Assembly: GCF_004345745.1 (NCBI RefSeq)
Contig: NZ_SLXJ01000002.1
Location: 1-64,000, forward strand
Direction of reading: 5' to 3'
DNA: 64,000 nt
DNA from: Nicoletella semolina
GTDB lineage: Bacteria; Pseudomonadota; Gammaproteobacteria; Enterobacterales; Pasteurellaceae
Shown here: positions 37,863 to 45,525 of the stretch, piece after piece
Layout of the letters: each line of letters begins with the position of its first letter
Numbering within the stretch: the stretch's first letter is position 1
The notes under the pieces: model-generated
The model's input: the letters and a program-made list of their open reading frames with translations, nothing else
What the model was told of the DNA's origin: nothing
Databases searched by the model: none
Program-made: the position numbers and the translations under genes

Positions 37863-38702
37863 ATGGAAAACTTAAACTTATCTAAAAAACCATTCATTAT
37901 TACCATCGCCTCAACCAAAGGCGGTTCAGCAAAAAGTACAAATGCAGCGAATATTGGTGCATTTTGTGCAGATCACGGGTTAAAGACCTTATTAATTGAT
38001 ACCGATACGCAACCGACACTCAGTGCTTATTTTGCCTTAGATTATGTTGCACCAGGTGGTATCCACGAGTTCTTGACCTATCAAGATGTCGATCCCGCCC
38101 ATATTATTTCAAAAACAACCCTGTCAAATTTAGATTTAATTCAATCCAACGATCCCACAAATAATGTCAGCCAGATGCTACGCAATGCCCCTGATGGGGC
38201 AATACGGTTTAGCTTTTTGCTGAAAAAGCTCAAAGGCTATGATGTGATTATTGTGGATACACGCGGAACGCGAGATATTACGGTAGATATGTCCGTACTT
38301 GCTGCAGATTTGTTATTTTGTCCTATCTTGCCACATATTTTATCCGCAAAAGAATTTATTCGCGGTACGATTGGAATGTACCAAGAATTGCAGACCTTTG
38401 AAGCATTTGGCTTTTCGCTCCCGCCGCTCAAGGCTGTGCCTAACTGTGTCGATCATACCAATGATGTTAAATTTGTGCTTGGTCATCTCAAACAGCTTTT
38501 TGAACAAAACTTGAGCGCAGATAAAACCCTCCTTGATTTCCATATTCCCGATAAAGTGGCTTACCGTGAAGCGGCAACCTATTCACTGCCCGTCTATCGA
38601 CATAGCAAAGCAGAGTATGCCGTAATCCAAGCCCTTTGTATGCATTTATTGCCTCAATTTGCTCTCCAATTTGAGCAAGGGTTAGGAGGGCATAATGCGT
38701 AA
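37863..38702 (+). CDS. soj: ParA/Soj-family ATPase of the ICE
   Basis: This partition-type ATPase in related elements helps maintain the excised circle. I start at ATG 37863 (MENLNLSKKPFI) behind AAGAGAGTATC; an upstream TTG at 37845 is possible. There are 279 residues: a deviant Walker A (STKGGSAKST), LIDTDTQPTLS, a Walker B-like IVDTRGTRD and a C-terminal helical part. It is the terminal gene of the element, next to tRNA-Asn, as in other soj-ended islands. It overlaps the helicase gene by 8 bases. Confidence 0.93.
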   Translation: MENLNLSKKPFIITIASTKGGSAKSTNAANIGAFCADHGLKTLLIDTDTQPTLSAYFALDYVAPGGIHEFLTYQDVDPAHIISKTTLSNLDLIQSNDPTNNVSQMLRNAPDGAIRFSFLLKKLKGYDVIIVDTRGTRDITVDMSVLAADLLFCPILPHILSAKEFIRGTIGMYQELQTFEAFGFSLPPLKAVPNCVDHTNDVKFVLGHLKQLFEQNLSADKTLLDFHIPDKVAYREAATYSLPVYRHSKAEYAVIQALCMHLLPQFALQFEQGLGGHNA

Positions 38703-40071
38703 AACGAAAAAGTTGTCCGCTGAGCTTTATTCGCTTGAGGCAGAACATTCGGTCATTGGTGGGCTATTGATTAATGCAGATTGCTTTGATGATGTGGCGA
38801 TCATTCTCAATGCTGAAGATTTCTATCTTATACAGCATCGCTGTATTTTTGAAACTATCGCATCACTTGCGAACCAAAATAAAGCCGTCGATATGCTTAC
38901 GGTGTCGGAATATTGCAAAGAAAAAGGCACCTTGGAAGAAGTTGGTGGTTTCGCTTATTTAGCTGAAATGGCACATAACACGCCATCGGTTGCCAATATT
39001 GTGGCTTATGCGGAGCTTGTCAAACAATATAGTCGGCAACGTCAATTTCTAGCCTTGGGGCAGTTTATTTTAACTGAAATGACCGAGCCTAAGAATGCGG
39101 AAAATTTGGCAGCACTTGCCGAGCAAATTGAACAGCGATATACGCAAATTTCGTTAAATCAAACCGATAAAAGTGCGGTGAAATTAGCGGACATTTTTTC
39201 GCAAATGTTTGACAAGATGGAGCAATCAACCTTAAGTGCTGACCCCGTTACAGGCACACCATTAGGTATTCAACAAATTGATGAGTTGACCACTGGTGGG
39301 CAAGCGGGGGAACTGATTATCATCGCTGCTCGCCCTGCGATGGGAAAAACGGCACTTTCTCTCACGGCAACGGCAAGTATTCTGGATAAGATGACAGATC
39401 AACCCGTGTTTTATTTCAGTCAGGAAATGCCTGCCGATCAGATTTTGCAACGTTTTATGGCAATGAAATCAAGAGTAAGCCTGCAAAAGATTCGTCGAGC
39501 AACAGAACTTGCGGAAGAAGATTGGAGCAAAATTACGGATTCTGCGGGCGATATTAAACAAAACTGGGACAAGCGTTTAATTATTGATGATGAGGGGGCA
39601 TTAACGATCCCTCGATTACGCAGTAAAGTTCGTCAATATAGCCGACAATATGGCTTGCCTGCAGCGGTATTCATTGATTATCTCCAATTAATGCGAGGCA
39701 CTGGCAGAGTAGAGAACCGACATCTTGAAATCACGCAAATTTCAGGGGCATTGAAAGCCTTAGCCAAAGAATTAGGGCGTCCTGTTTATGCCCTTTCACA
39801 ACTCAATCGTAGTTTAGAACAACGCACCAATAAACGCCCTGTCAATGCGGATTTACGCGAATCTGGCTCGTTAGAGCAAGATGCTGATGTGATCCTATTT
39901 ATCTATCGTGATGAAGTCTATCACCCAGAAAGTGTTGATCGGGGGCTAGCTGAAATCATTATCGGCAAACAACGTAATGGACCATTAGGGAGCGTGAAAT
40001 GCCGTTTTTATGGTGAGTTTAGTTTATTTGAAAATGAAATGAATTTAGGTGGATATTACGATGAACACTAA
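38695..40071 (+). CDS. dnaB: DnaB-like replicative helicase
   Basis: The 458-residue hexameric helicase belongs to the element and is distinct from the host DnaB. It has an N-terminal DnaB domain (ELYSLEAEHSVIGGLL, ECIE-like LTVSEYCKEKG) and a RecA-like domain with Walker A AARPAMGKTA, the FSQEMPADQI segment, Walker B VFIDYLQLM, the arginine finger region and SGSLEQDADVILFIYRDE. It overlaps parA upstream and parB downstream, so it is part of a tightly coupled replication/partition operon. A Hin-type USS lies at 39171. Confidence 0.95.
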   Translation: MRKTKKLSAELYSLEAEHSVIGGLLINADCFDDVAIILNAEDFYLIQHRCIFETIASLANQNKAVDMLTVSEYCKEKGTLEEVGGFAYLAEMAHNTPSVANIVAYAELVKQYSRQRQFLALGQFILTEMTEPKNAENLAALAEQIEQRYTQISLNQTDKSAVKLADIFSQMFDKMEQSTLSADPVTGTPLGIQQIDELTTGGQAGELIIIAARPAMGKTALSLTATASILDKMTDQPVFYFSQEMPADQILQRFMAMKSRVSLQKIRRATELAEEDWSKITDSAGDIKQNWDKRLIIDDEGALTIPRLRSKVRQYSRQYGLPAAVFIDYLQLMRGTGRVENRHLEITQISGALKALAKELGRPVYALSQLNRSLEQRTNKRPVNADLRESGSLEQDADVILFIYRDEVYHPESVDRGLAEIIIGKQRNGPLGSVKCRFYGEFSLFENEMNLGGYYDEH

Positions 40072-41767
40072 GAACAAAAAATTATCAGATGCCGTGGCAC
40101 GAAATTTAAATGTTGCACCAATGGTGAATACCTCGCCTTCTTATGTGGGGGTGGCTGCGACGCATTACCCAACAACCTCTCAGTACATTACGGTAACTTT
40201 AGATAAATTACGCCCTTATGAGCATAACCCACGCAAAACCCGTAATCCTAACTTTGAGATGATCAAAGAATCCATTCGACGTCGCGGACTCGATCATAAG
40301 CCCAATATTACCCAACGTCCAGGTGAGCCGTTTTATATCATCGCAGACGGGGGAAATACACGGATTCAAGCCTTAAAAGAGCTATTTAGTGAAACTCAAG
40401 ATCAACGTTTTTGGGCGATTGAATGCTTGTATAAACCTTGGAAAGGGGAGACTGCGGACAGTGTGGAAGCTGAACTGGATTTGCTGATCGGTCATTTAAT
40501 TGAAAATGATACCCGTGCAGATTTAACCTTTATTGAGAAAGCCCTAGGGATTCAGCAGGCGAAGGAGTATTACGAGAAAAAATTGGGGCGTTCATTATCC
40601 GCTCGAGAGCTTTCAACTGAATTGGAAAATGATGGGTATATTATTCATTATACAATGGTATCTAAAATGGGACGTTGTTTAGAATTCTTATATCCATTTA
40701 TTCCTGATGTATTATTTAATGGATTAGGCAATAGCCCGATTGATAAACTCTTAGCCATTCGCAATAACGCCCTTGAAGTTTGGCAGCAATACCAATTTGA
40801 TACAGAAATCACGTTTGAAGCCATTTGGCAAAATAGCCTGTCTCGTTGTAATGATGATTACCCATTCAATGTGAAAACCTTTCAAGATGCGTTAATTAAT
40901 GAGATGACGGATGCCCTTGAGGGCAAAGTCAGCTATGAAATGCTCTATATGGAAGTGGATCTCGATGAGCGTAAATTCCAAAAATTGGCGAAAAAGCAGC
41001 AAGAAATTGATGCCCAAATTCAGCATAGTGAAGAAGATGTAGCGAGATTTCAGCAACAGCAATTGGAAAAATCCCTTTCTGAACCTGTTCAAAACATTGA
41101 GATGACCGAATCAGAAAGCACAAATGTCATTACGCCAATCTTTGATGAACGTGCCGAAAATGCAGAAAAAAATGACCGCACTTTTGTAGAAGATGCCAAC
41201 CACGATAGTTTAGAAACGGAAGCAGTCAATGACATGGTGAATACTGAAACAGTTGATGAGGTTTCTAGTTCTGAACCAACCCAAGATCTCGCCCAGCAAT
41301 TTGCCCAAAATTACGGTATTACGCCAGGAATGAGCATTCAGACTCAACGTGAGCAGCAAGCCATTGCAAATGGGCTGGAATTTGCTTGTGTAGGTCGTCA
41401 ACCTGTTGCGGATATTTGGCAAGTGTACCCAAGTCGCCAACATAAAGCAGAAGCCTATTCGCTTGCCTTAGATATTGCCGAGCAGTTTGGGTTAGATGAA
41501 CTCGTTGAACACGTTGTGAACCAACCTGTCGATTATAGCTTTCAGATGAAAGCCGTCGAAGATTCTTTAAAAGATGATACCCAACGTACCATTTATGAGT
41601 TACTCAGTATGTTGCAAACACAGAATCTAGCCTATTCGGAAGCCTGTTTTCTTGATACGGCATTATTGTTAGGTTCAACTGATCGAGAACCTAAAATTGA
41701 TGATGTTACCTTGGTGAAATTATTTCGACTCATTCGTCTTGTTCGCTATTTGCGGGCTTCAGCTTAA
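40061..41767 (+). CDS. parB: ParB-family protein of the ICE
   Basis: The start is placed at ATG 40061 (MNTKNKKLSD), which follows AGGTGGATATTACG inside the end of the helicase gene. There are 568 residues. About 45-140 is a ParB/Spo0J nuclease-like domain (LDKLRPYEHNPRKT, ADGGNTRIQAL). A helix-turn-helix-type segment follows, then a long acidic linker (residues ~300-400, rich in Glu/Ser/Asn) and a C-terminal domain with GLEFACVGRQPVADIW typical of GI-type ParBs. A Hin-type USS (41175) falls in the linker. Confidence 0.9.
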   Translation: MNTKNKKLSDAVARNLNVAPMVNTSPSYVGVAATHYPTTSQYITVTLDKLRPYEHNPRKTRNPNFEMIKESIRRRGLDHKPNITQRPGEPFYIIADGGNTRIQALKELFSETQDQRFWAIECLYKPWKGETADSVEAELDLLIGHLIENDTRADLTFIEKALGIQQAKEYYEKKLGRSLSARELSTELENDGYIIHYTMVSKMGRCLEFLYPFIPDVLFNGLGNSPIDKLLAIRNNALEVWQQYQFDTEITFEAIWQNSLSRCNDDYPFNVKTFQDALINEMTDALEGKVSYEMLYMEVDLDERKFQKLAKKQQEIDAQIQHSEEDVARFQQQQLEKSLSEPVQNIEMTESESTNVITPIFDERAENAEKNDRTFVEDANHDSLETEAVNDMVNTETVDEVSSSEPTQDLAQQFAQNYGITPGMSIQTQREQQAIANGLEFACVGRQPVADIWQVYPSRQHKAEAYSLALDIAEQFGLDELVEHVVNQPVDYSFQMKAVEDSLKDDTQRTIYELLSMLQTQNLAYSEACFLDTALLLGSTDREPKIDDVTLVKLFRLIRLVRYLRASA

Positions 41768-42492: not shown

Positions 42493-43719
42493 ATGACAAT
42501 TTTTGAGCAAATCACCACATCGCCCAATACAGAGCAGGGGTTACTGTTTTTTGGGAATCAGCACGAAACCGTGCCCACACGGCTACTTTATGATCCTTAT
42601 TTAACCCCGCGAGCCAAATTTGCTTGGCAGCTTATCAAGCATAAGGCGAGGGAGTTTCAAGGGGGATTATTTCCATCTTACGAGGTGTTGGGAAAACTGC
42701 TTTCAGATAAGCCTTACCTGAATGCGAGCCTATCGCGTAAAACCGTCAGCCAAACCTTATTACTGCTACGCCTAACAAGGTGGTTGACCCTTTGTGAAAC
42801 CGTGCGTAATGAATTAGGGCAAGTAAAAGGGAATGTCTATTTACTGCACGATGAGCCTATTCCCATATTAGATGCAATTCAACTTAACGAAGATTATTTA
42901 CATTTACTCCATTCAGCCACAAAACATAAAGACGTTGTAGTGAGAGGGGTTGCAACGCATATTGTCGATAATATTCTTTCAGATAAAACCCAATGGCATT
43001 ATGTTTCGCATATTGATTGGATGCAAGCTCGTTATCAAGATTATTGTTCTCGTCTCGGAAATGAAAAAGAGGCTGATTTTTCTCATTTAAATTTAGATAC
43101 TGTGCAGCAGAATTTGCTGCGTTCCAATAAGGAACGCAGTCAAAACAGCAGGGAACTCAGTGAAAAAACAATCAATTTACCGAGTTCCATTAAGGAACTC
43201 AGTCAAAATGACCTAAGTTCCAATAGGGAACTCTGCCAAGAAAAACAGGCTAAGTCATTGATTTTAGGCTCAGTTCCATTAAGGAACTCAGCAAGTACCT
43301 CGTACAAGTATAGTACGGTATTTATAAATAAATACTGTACAGGTACGGTAGAGGAAATTGATTGGACGCTCAACTTAACCCCTTTTGAGAAACGTACTGT
43401 AGTTAAAGCAATGGAAGGGCTTGATTTGGGGCTGTGTCAAGCTATTTTGTTTGAAGCGGGTGAACGCCTTGCAAAAGGAACCATCAAGAAACCACAGGGA
43501 TATTTGCTAAGCCTAGTGAGAAAAGCTCATTTAGGGCAATTTAATCCCTATTTACTTGAACAACACTTAAGCCAATGTCATACGCCTGCGGTGAATCAAT
43601 CTCAGCCACAAGCGATTGTGCCAGAGCGAGAACAAACGCTATCGTCTGTGCCAACGCTTGAACAACGTCAAGCGAGAGCGGCAATGATACGGAAATTTAA
43701 AGCACAGTTGTTGAATTGA
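42493..43719 (+). CDS. STY4528-family ICE replication protein
   Basis: The 408-residue product matches the STY4528 family, described as a pathogenicity-island replication protein in GI-type elements. It has an N-terminal winged-helix-like region (LLYDPYLTPRAKFAWQLIKHK, LLSDKPYLNASLSRKTVSQTL) and a low-complexity middle with repeated Ser-Asn/Ile-x-Glu-Leu (residues ~210-270). A C-terminal helical domain (LTPFEKRTVVKAMEGLDLGL, KKPQGYLLSLVRKA) follows. The low-complexity middle is encoded by a set of palindromes that may be the real reason for the sequence. The gene begins a new unit after a stem-loop. Confidence 0.85.
   Translation: MTIFEQITTSPNTEQGLLFFGNQHETVPTRLLYDPYLTPRAKFAWQLIKHKAREFQGGLFPSYEVLGKLLSDKPYLNASLSRKTVSQTLLLLRLTRWLTLCETVRNELGQVKGNVYLLHDEPIPILDAIQLNEDYLHLLHSATKHKDVVVRGVATHIVDNILSDKTQWHYVSHIDWMQARYQDYCSRLGNEKEADFSHLNLDTVQQNLLRSNKERSQNSRELSEKTINLPSSIKELSQNDLSSNRELCQEKQAKSLILGSVPLRNSASTSYKYSTVFINKYCTGTVEEIDWTLNLTPFEKRTVVKAMEGLDLGLCQAILFEAGERLAKGTIKKPQGYLLSLVRKAHLGQFNPYLLEQHLSQCHTPAVNQSQPQAIVPEREQTLSSVPTLEQRQARAAMIRKFKAQLLN
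43104..43340 (+). repeat. palindromic iterons inside the STY4528 gene
   Basis: Six stem-loops lie in 240 bases of coding sequence. One is GCAGCA/TGCTGC (43104-43120). Four share the form GTTCC-5 bases-GGAAC with A/T/G loops and variable outer pairs: 43119-43137 (outer GC/GC), 43182-43200 (GA/TC), 43216-43232 and 43272-43288. The last is an AT-centred imperfect 28-bp palindrome with GTAC ends (43313-43340). A lone half-site GGGAACTC lies near 43151. They resemble origin iterons placed within the initiator gene. Confidence 0.8.
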
Positions 43720-43736
43720 GAACAAAAAATAAGCAC

Positions 43737-43969
43737 TGTGTAGGGGCTACACAAAGTACAAAAAATAGCCGCTGTAAAGGGGCTTTACAAAGTACAAAAA
43801 TTAATCACTGTAGAAGGGTTCTACAAAGTACAAAAAATAATCACTGTAGAAGGGTTCTACAAAGTACAAAAAATAATCACTGTAGAAGGGTTCTACAAAG
43901 TACAAAAATTAATCACTGAAAAGGGACTTTTCAAAGTATAAAAATTAATCAGTGAAGCGGGACGCTTCA
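43737..43969 (+). repeat. 36-bp-period array of seven covarying hairpins
   Basis: Seven 17-base hairpins start at 43737, 43773, 43809, 43845, 43881, 43917 and 43953, exactly 36 bases apart. Each has a perfect 7-bp stem and a 3-base GGG or GGA loop. The stems are TGTGTAG, TGTAAAG, TGTAGAA (three times), TGAAAAG and TGAAGCG, each followed by its own complement. Both arms therefore change together. The 19-base spacer AAGTACAAAAAATAATCAC is nearly constant. The array fills the gap between the STY4528 gene and TIGR03761. A 67-codon frame crosses it, but the repetition makes coding unlikely. Confidence 0.93.
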
Positions 43970-44005
43970 AAGTACAAAAATTGACCACTAAATAGGAGTA
44001 TCAAT

Positions 44006-44758
44006 ATGACAACCACTGATCTTCAAAATCAACGACCAGGACCACTACGCAGCGCACCTGAAATTACCATCAATACCCATCATGCCTCTAAATTATGGGT
44101 GGGGCGTGCAGCTGTACGAAATGAACAAGGCAAAATTACCCGTGCAGGGATCATCAGTATGCCGAACTGCCTGAGTTTATTGAGTCAAATTCAGCGTGCG
44201 GCAACGAATGATGATCCTTATGCAGATGACTATTTACTACGGTTTGAAACCAAAGTGCTGGGTTATCGTCAGGAAATGCAGCAATTGGTTGATAAGGTAA
44301 ATTACCTTTATAGTGAACAAATCCCTGCAGCATTTCATATGGAAAATTCAGTATCAGTAGAGCCCGCACGTTATGCATTGACCTTTAATTCTCAACTTGG
44401 CTATCAATTAATTTTCCTTTTTTTGAAATTTGATGAGCTCGCTTGTGCGGTAATGGCCGCATCTCATATTGCCTTAATAACCCGTAGCGAAGCCTCGGAT
44501 TGGATTGAAGCTGGGGCAAAATTAATTCGTCAGTGTTTTGGCTTGGTTGAAAATTATCGTCATTCAGGGATTACCCGCCGCGATGCAATCGAAAATAATG
44601 CACGCTATAAAGCTGCGATAAAACGAATGAAGTATGAATTATCCCCTGAAATTTTATCGGGTGAAAAACGTGCAAATTTTGCTCCAGTCATAAAAAATGC
44701 CTCGTCATCTGAGGCTGAACCAGAACAAGATGAGTTTGTTGAGAATGGCTCAGAATAA
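44006..44758 (+). CDS. TIGR03761-family ICE protein (PFL_4669-like)
   Basis: The 250-residue product matches the integrating conjugative element family TIGR03761. Landmarks are LRSAPEITINTHHASKLWVGR near the N-terminus, DDPYADDYLLRFE, VEPARYALTFNSQLGYQLIFL and the GITRRDAIENNARYKAAI region. There is no signal or membrane segment. The function is unknown; it always lies between the STY4528 protein and DUF3158 in these elements, suggesting a part in replication or DNA handling. Its ribosome site (TAGGAG) comes directly after the hairpin array, which would be its 5' untranslated region. Confidence 0.88.
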   Translation: MTTTDLQNQRPGPLRSAPEITINTHHASKLWVGRAAVRNEQGKITRAGIISMPNCLSLLSQIQRAATNDDPYADDYLLRFETKVLGYRQEMQQLVDKVNYLYSEQIPAAFHMENSVSVEPARYALTFNSQLGYQLIFLFLKFDELACAVMAASHIALITRSEASDWIEAGAKLIRQCFGLVENYRHSGITRRDAIENNARYKAAIKRMKYELSPEILSGEKRANFAPVIKNASSSEAEPEQDEFVENGSE

Positions 44759-45311: not shown

Positions 45312-45321
45312 AAAGTTTGTA

Positions 45322-45525
45322 ATGGCTGGATTTTCAAGTTTGTACTCATTGGATTTTCAAAGTTTGTACTCACTGGATACAAAAGGCCTTTTAAAGGTAA
45401 GGGGACAAGCCCCTTACCTTAACGAAGAAAAAGCCTTTACCTTTGAACAGCTTGTCGGCTCTGATATATTATACAGAGCTAGCTATGCAATCAATAAAGA
45501 ACGATTTGAGAGGGAATTGAGATGA
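45322..45525 (+). CDS. small hypothetical protein
   Basis: The ATG at 45322 (MAGFSSLYSLDF) opens a 67-residue frame. The first 18 codons are built from a 23/24-bp repeat (AAGTTTGTACTCAYTGGATTT, at 45313, 45336 and 45360), giving FSSLYSLDF/FQSLYSLD. The rest (RGQAPYLNEEKAFTFEQLVGSDILYRASYA) looks like a conserved small ICE protein. Its stop overlaps the next ATG (ATGA), arguing for translation. A strong inverted repeat lies inside the frame. Without the repeats I would have no doubt; with them, coding is likely but not certain. Confidence 0.6.
   Translation: MAGFSSLYSLDFQSLYSLDTKGLLKVRGQAPYLNEEKAFTFEQLVGSDILYRASYAINKERFERELR
45394..45420 (+). repeat. perfect 11-bp stem-loop within the small ORF
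   Basis: AAGGTAAGGGG, a 5-base loop ACAAG, then CCCCTTACCTT. The palindrome AAAAGGCCTTTT lies just upstream (45381-45392). No T run follows, so it is not a typical terminator. It may limit expression of the downstream membrane protein or act as single-stranded DNA structure. Confidence 0.75.

Follow-up and report, generated by a model that had tools for sequence, protein, structure and literature searches.

Mobile elements of the PFGI-1, pKLC102 and ICEHin1056 family carry a region that is described, in the passages devoted to it, as a putative origin of replication (oriV) with direct repeats containing an inverted repeat (PMC2647930). For ICEHin1056, the corresponding passages report iteron-like and indirect repeats in a putative oriV (PMC2258188). 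According to the same text on PFGI-1, no Rep protein was recognised in that element, and replication by strand displacement had been suggested earlier for pKLC102 (PMC2647930). Excerpts from two further papers give about 30 circular copies of pKLC102 per chromosome in one strain (PMC8765398), and consider its autonomous replication consistent with the postulated oriV (PMC7685784). Thus, as far as these passages go, it is known already that the region is a putative oriV whose direct repeats enclose inverted repeats (PMC2647930, PMC2258188). Here we analysed the equivalent region in a 64,000-nucleotide stretch of Nicoletella semolina (contig NZ_SLXJ01000002.1, positions 1 to 64,000, forward strand, assembly GCF_004345745.1; hereafter the window). 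It holds an array of seven DNA hairpins.

The array lies in the same place as the published oriV, between the STY4528/PFL_4668 gene and PFL_4669. Like that region, it consists of direct repeats, each with an inverted repeat of approximately 17-21 bp, and is accompanied by four conserved palindromes of the GAGTTC...GAACTC type. The published passages treat the repeats as ordinary and iteron-like, and mention neither covarying stems and a 7-3-7 geometry (7-bp stem, 3-nt loop) nor loop flipping and the missing RNA-like wobble. Conservation of the hairpin shape, with one geometry throughout the family, appears to be new.

Structure and covariation of the hairpin array

The features of the array are as follows.

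43722-43988, forward strand: complete array, with the conserved A-rich linkers of 19 bp that precede, separate and follow the hairpins
43737-43969, forward strand: seven 17-bp hairpins, each with a 7-bp stem, a 3-nt loop and TG...CA ends, at an exact 36-bp period
43737-43753, 43773-43789, 43809-43825 and 43845-43861, forward strand: hairpins 1 to 4, by direct reading
43881-43897, 43917-43933 and 43953-43969, forward strand: hairpins 5 to 7, by direct reading

A first-pass annotation, made from the sequence alone, had described seven perfect hairpins at this period with five stem sequences and 19-base linkers. Direct reading bears this out, and Tandem Repeats Finder independently reported a tandem repeat at 43722-43980 (period 36, 7.2 copies). 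The 5' arms are TGTGTAG, TGTAAAG, TGTAGAA (three times), TGAAAAG and TGAAGCG, and every stem is perfectly matched. The triloop is GGG in five hairpins and GGA in two. The linker, with the consensus AAGTACAAAAAWTAAYCAC (19 bp, A-rich), is near-constant within the array. Folded as single-stranded DNA, the array reaches -33.3 kcal/mol, as compared with -13.9 in dinucleotide shuffles (z -7.0, 0/200 shuffles as stable). The pattern CTGN5GGGN5CAAAGT has five matches in the whole host genome, each inside the array, and reversed-pattern controls have none. A scan of the window with a covariance model of the unit revealed no extra copy above chance outside the array, and the background rate in flanking DNA of a single TG-7-3-7-CA hairpin (at least 6/7 pairs) is 0.056 per kb. 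The hairpin array is a real feature, far beyond chance.

Related loci were collected via TIGR03761, the family of the PFL_4669 protein, from Pasteurellaceae, other Enterobacterales, the wider class and named genomes, plus plasmids. The comparison of unit number and stem covariation across related elements, which the first-pass annotation had called for, shows that the stems covary while the number of units per locus varies from 1 to 32. From 37 loci, most of them in Pasteurellaceae, we collected 82 distinct hairpins, whose 5' arms have 43 different sequences. At their inner five positions, 4.57 of 5 are paired, versus 1.80 when arms are shuffled (maximum 2.23 in 1000 shuffles). An alignment of 34 diverse units contains 85 double changes and no one-sided change, with a covariation score of 0.891 versus 0.171 in shuffles (0/500), although these units, like those of the loop-flip test below, were pre-selected for pairing. 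The arm-shuffle tests and a sample of 189 units chosen solely by their place between two other units are fairer measures; in this position-only sample, 130 units have 7/7 pairs and 48 have 6/7. Stem positions 3-6 show every one of the four Watson-Crick pair types, and position 7 shows three of them. The linkers and TG/CA ends are conserved in sequence across relatives, and the stem interior and loop are not. Homologous arrays thus remain complementary, as expected if the constraint is on hairpin shape and not on one stem sequence. In one locus (L006), 160 bp upstream of the PFL_4669 match, a chimeric unit has two broken pairs, which is evidence of exchange through the loop.

The array resembles classic plasmid iterons in being a set of tandem direct repeats with a fixed period, a conserved linker and variable copy number, beside the gene of a probable initiator. 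Unlike in classic iterons, nearly half of the unit is kept as structure and not as sequence: conservation of sequence over the whole unit, typical of iterons, is found here for the linker, but not for the stem and loop. The earlier statement that the array is unlike ordinary iterons therefore holds for the stems, whereas the linkers are conserved in sequence just as iterons are.

Distribution with the replication module

The gene order in the window is dnaB-like helicase (38695-40071), ParB (40049-41767), DUF2857, STY4528, the array, PFL_4669, DUF3158, ssb and topB. Judged from sequence, this order corresponds to the ICEHin1056-family replication module, and ICEHin1056 itself has the same gene order and the same kind of hairpin array. 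The features next to the array are listed here.

42493-43719, forward strand: STY4528-family replication protein (NF040582)
43119-43137, 43182-43200, 43215-43233 and 43271-43289, no strand assigned: four palindromes of the GAGTTCC-N5-GGAACTC type, within the STY4528 coding region
43994-43998, forward strand: AGGAG, a ribosome-binding-like site of PFL_4669, outside the array, found by inspection
44006-44758, forward strand: PFL_4669-family protein (TIGR03761, Pfam AcaB PF08900), the first gene past the array

The PFL_4669 protein matches PF08900 with 234 bits (gathering score 27), and its predicted fold resembles the solved AcaB structure 6n8a, a transcription regulator (Z 14.9). Sequence searches of the PDB gave chance-level matches, except for a weak match to AcaB. 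Another small tandem repeat (AAAGTTTGTACTCACTGGATTTTC, 2.8 copies, period 23) lies past the DUF3158 gene, at 45312-45378.

Upstream of PFL_4669, 115 of 157 non-redundant loci from Pasteurellaceae, Enterobacterales and Pseudomonas contain one or more TG-N5-NNN-N5'-CA hairpins, and the array usually follows directly after the STY4528 gene. Unit spacings are most commonly 36 bp (146 cases) or 40 bp (69 cases), with 39 bp in 10. Many Enterobacterales have a single-copy unit that is still perfectly paired. In distant relatives (Pseudomonas L172, and also L075, L079 and L084), the 7-3-7 geometry is kept and the linkers are unrelated. At the upper end of copy number, locus L030 has at least 32 units upstream of PFL_4669 at a 40-bp period, with several stem types in mixed order, suggesting unit-wise amplification and exchange. 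In another locus (L182) the units resemble a dispersed repeat family, and several of them have lengthened stems bordered by A and T runs. Two Pantoea plasmids (L183/L184 and L185/L186) hold the complete island module together with the array. Viral contigs yielded no relatives.

The unit is coupled to the STY4528 gene: it is present in 116/136 loci with STY4528 and in 6/25 without (Fisher 2e-9). Among 140 Pasteurellaceae genomes, 38 encode STY4528, namely the 36 that carry TIGR03761 plus two in which STY4528 lies at a contig end. The covariance model of the unit matches 27 of the 140. Of these, 26 belong to the 36 TIGR03761 carriers, and in the other one the array comes after a STY4528 gene located at a contig end. 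The TIGR03761 genomes missed by the model carry the 40-bp form, where inspected. In one locus (L008) the array stays with STY4528, and other sequence separates it from PFL_4669. There are also two cases in which STY4528 is split into two frames and the adjoining array is intact (G012:C1:6900-7911 and G011:C2:2256142-2257060).

STAXI (Rfam RF01728), to which the array had been likened in concept but not in structure, is indeed different: there is no RF01728 match up to E 10 on 43600-44100, and the Rfam search found no STAXI in the window or in ICEHin1056. Every one of the ten Enterobacterales relatives that were searched has STAXI, approximately 3 kb downstream of PFL_4669 (L132:9118-9279, L125:9100-9256, L141:9108-9262 and seven more; in L132 it lies between topB and STY4534). 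It shares the island replication module, near topB and ssb, but is a single structure of about 153 nt and not a set of tandem hairpins. The module of these Enterobacterales relatives thus carries two different structured elements.

The STY4528 protein and palindromes within its gene

A structural model of STY4528 contains an N-terminal winged helix (residues 15-123) and a disordered linker (residues 191-283). The closest structural neighbours of the winged helix are primosomal DnaB (Z 8.9) and RepA_N-type plasmid initiators (Z 8.3, 7.8 and 7.3), followed by DnaD (Z 7.2) and RctB (Z 7.0), with ordinary winged-helix regulators close behind. Based on this modelled resemblance to replication initiators, which appears to be new, STY4528 is probably an initiator. 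PFGI-1 was described without a Rep protein in the passages cited above, whereas STY4528 has the look of an initiator.

The four palindromes are the counterpart of the 23-bp palindromes in the published PFGI-1 oriV. They encode a repeated peptide, SSN(K/R)ELS, in the disordered linker of STY4528, and one of them is changed symmetrically on both arms (GCGTTCC...GGAACGC). We consider them candidate initiator or ParB sites. In RepA_N plasmids the origin is located inside the rep gene. The palindromes within the STY4528 gene would parallel this arrangement, an analogy that we regard as a lead.

DNA hairpins as a proposed part of the putative origin

We consider it reasonably likely that the array is a hairpin-forming, cis-acting DNA component of the putative oriV, in which recognition would depend on sequence in the linker and on shape in the stem; the origin function is inferred from the published annotation and the location. 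The sequence-conserved A-rich linker would be the probable contact site of a protein. The hairpin, with its 7-bp stem, 3-nt loop and TG...CA base, would be read by shape, leaving its letters free to change. It would most likely act in a melted or transiently single-stranded origin, or as a short cruciform, and may offer the initiator, the DnaB helicase of the element or a primase a place to land or to prime. Alternatively, the hairpin may keep SSB off. The origins of IncQ plasmids (ssiA/ssiB) and those of G4 type use single, longer single-stranded DNA hairpins that are read by a dedicated primase. The array resembles these in that hairpins would be single-strand replication signals, in line with the strand displacement suggested for pKLC102, but differs in its tandem short hairpins and in having no primase linked to it.

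Several points weigh against this proposal. GC skew in ICEHin1056 and two Pantoea plasmids does not point to the array, and arms of 7 bp are short for cruciform extrusion. Approximately 15% of STY4528 loci lack a recognisable unit adjoining the gene, the array lies after PFL_4669 in one element (G097), and units are scattered over about 8 kb in L182:6797-14245 (genome G051, Pasteurellaceae). The fold matches of STY4528 (Z 7-9) come from a model of moderate confidence (predicted local distance difference test, pLDDT, 65 overall). A separate replication initiation protein is encoded by both array-bearing Pantoea plasmids, where the module may therefore have no part in vegetative replication. As to the reader, the distances of linkers were compared with those of STY4528 and PFL_4669, but the two proteins co-vary (r 0.96) and the comparison does not distinguish between them. 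Neither 36 bp nor 40 bp is a whole number of helical turns, which gives no reason to expect cooperative binding aligned on one face of the helix.

An operator or iteron acting as duplex is unlikely, but is the best of the alternatives. A dimeric protein (the AcaB-like PFL_4669, or STY4528) would bind the linkers and the TG...CA half-sites, and the palindrome would be its dyad symmetry. The sequence conservation of linkers and TG/CA ends fits this, as do the assignment of PFL_4669 to Pfam AcaB and its modelled resemblance to the solved regulator. However, stem positions 3-6 admit all four base pairs, and even a single array contains different stems; a dimer that reads sequence would not tolerate such variation while requiring self-complementarity. 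The odd 3-nt centre and the fixed 7-3-7 geometry fit a hairpin.

Slightly less probable is a read-out as RNA, in which hairpins in the STY4528 to PFL_4669 transcript would be a leader, processing, stability or protein-binding element for expression of PFL_4669. In most relatives the array does stand in a same-strand row of genes upstream of PFL_4669, and the window array folded as RNA is more stable than shuffles (z -3.7). An RNA stem is expected to tolerate G-U far more than A-C, but we observed 14 G-T and 15 A-C among the inner non-Watson-Crick pairs, and 9 G-T and 12 A-C among the mismatches of the position-only sample. The loops, too, flip to the reverse complement: of 48 pairs of loops on the same stem, 10 are exact reverse complements, versus 3.2 expected (0/2000 shuffles), the flipped pairs being ACT/AGT, CCC/GGG, CCG/CGG, CTG/CAG and GGC/GCC. 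Neither strand nor loop orientation is fixed, and this therefore points to an array that acts as DNA and not as an RNA stem; it also suggests that strand switching or inversion occurs at the hairpin sites. Further against an RNA function, the array keeps company with STY4528 where it is separated from PFL_4669 (L008) and follows PFL_4669 in G097, no Rfam family matches at the array, and promoter-like sites in the region are no commoner than in shuffles. The suggestion of the first-pass annotation that the array is the leader of the TIGR03761 gene thus finds no support in wobble pairs, loops or placement. Nor do its possible CsrA sites hold up, with GGA in only 2/7 window loops and relatives having various loops, among them ACT, AGT, GGG, CCG and CTG.

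The array is not a CRISPR, as had been stated, since its variable parts are self-complementary, unlike the unrelated spacers between constant CRISPR repeats. An open reading frame (43716-43919) crosses the array, and ICEHin1056 has an annotation of 63 amino acids there, but we rejected a protein-coding reading because the 40-bp period of many relatives breaks any frame and because the Pantoea annotation is on the other strand.

A purely mutational origin seems a little less probable again. Template switching or quasipalindrome correction would keep stems perfect, and units would spread by unequal exchange and gene conversion, the fold itself not being under selection. Loop flips are what strand switching inside a palindrome would leave behind, the chimeric unit of L006 (TGTGTAG-GGG-CTGGACA) joins the arms of neighbouring units, and copy number ranges widely. 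Left unexplained by such processes are the fixed 7-3-7 geometry, the TG/CA ends, the fixed place from Pasteurellaceae to Pseudomonas, and the perfect single-copy units of many Enterobacterales. Transcription terminators or insulators resembling repetitive extragenic palindromes, which would block antisense transcription or read-through between the genes, are very improbable: the minus strand has a T-run about 8 nt past each hairpin, one array hairpin scores as terminator-like and the extended L182 stems are flanked directly by A and T runs, but the T-run is too distant from the stem in nearly all units, the region has 4 terminator-like sites versus 2.2 expected, and up to 32 tandem copies would make no sense.

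Recognition of plasmid and integrative-element origins normally depends on sequence. In the present case, half of the repeated unit is kept only as a DNA hairpin, in elements of Pasteurellaceae, Enterobacterales and Pseudomonas. We tentatively raise the possibility that tandem DNA hairpins mark the origin of a widespread integrative-element family and are recognised by geometry, regardless of stem sequence or loop orientation. If this is true, sites read by shape could change sequence freely yet stay functional. The family spreads resistance and virulence genes, and its mechanism of replication has so far only been postulated. Judging by the winged-helix model, STY4528 may be the family's missing initiator, and origins in the family could be located by structure instead of sequence.
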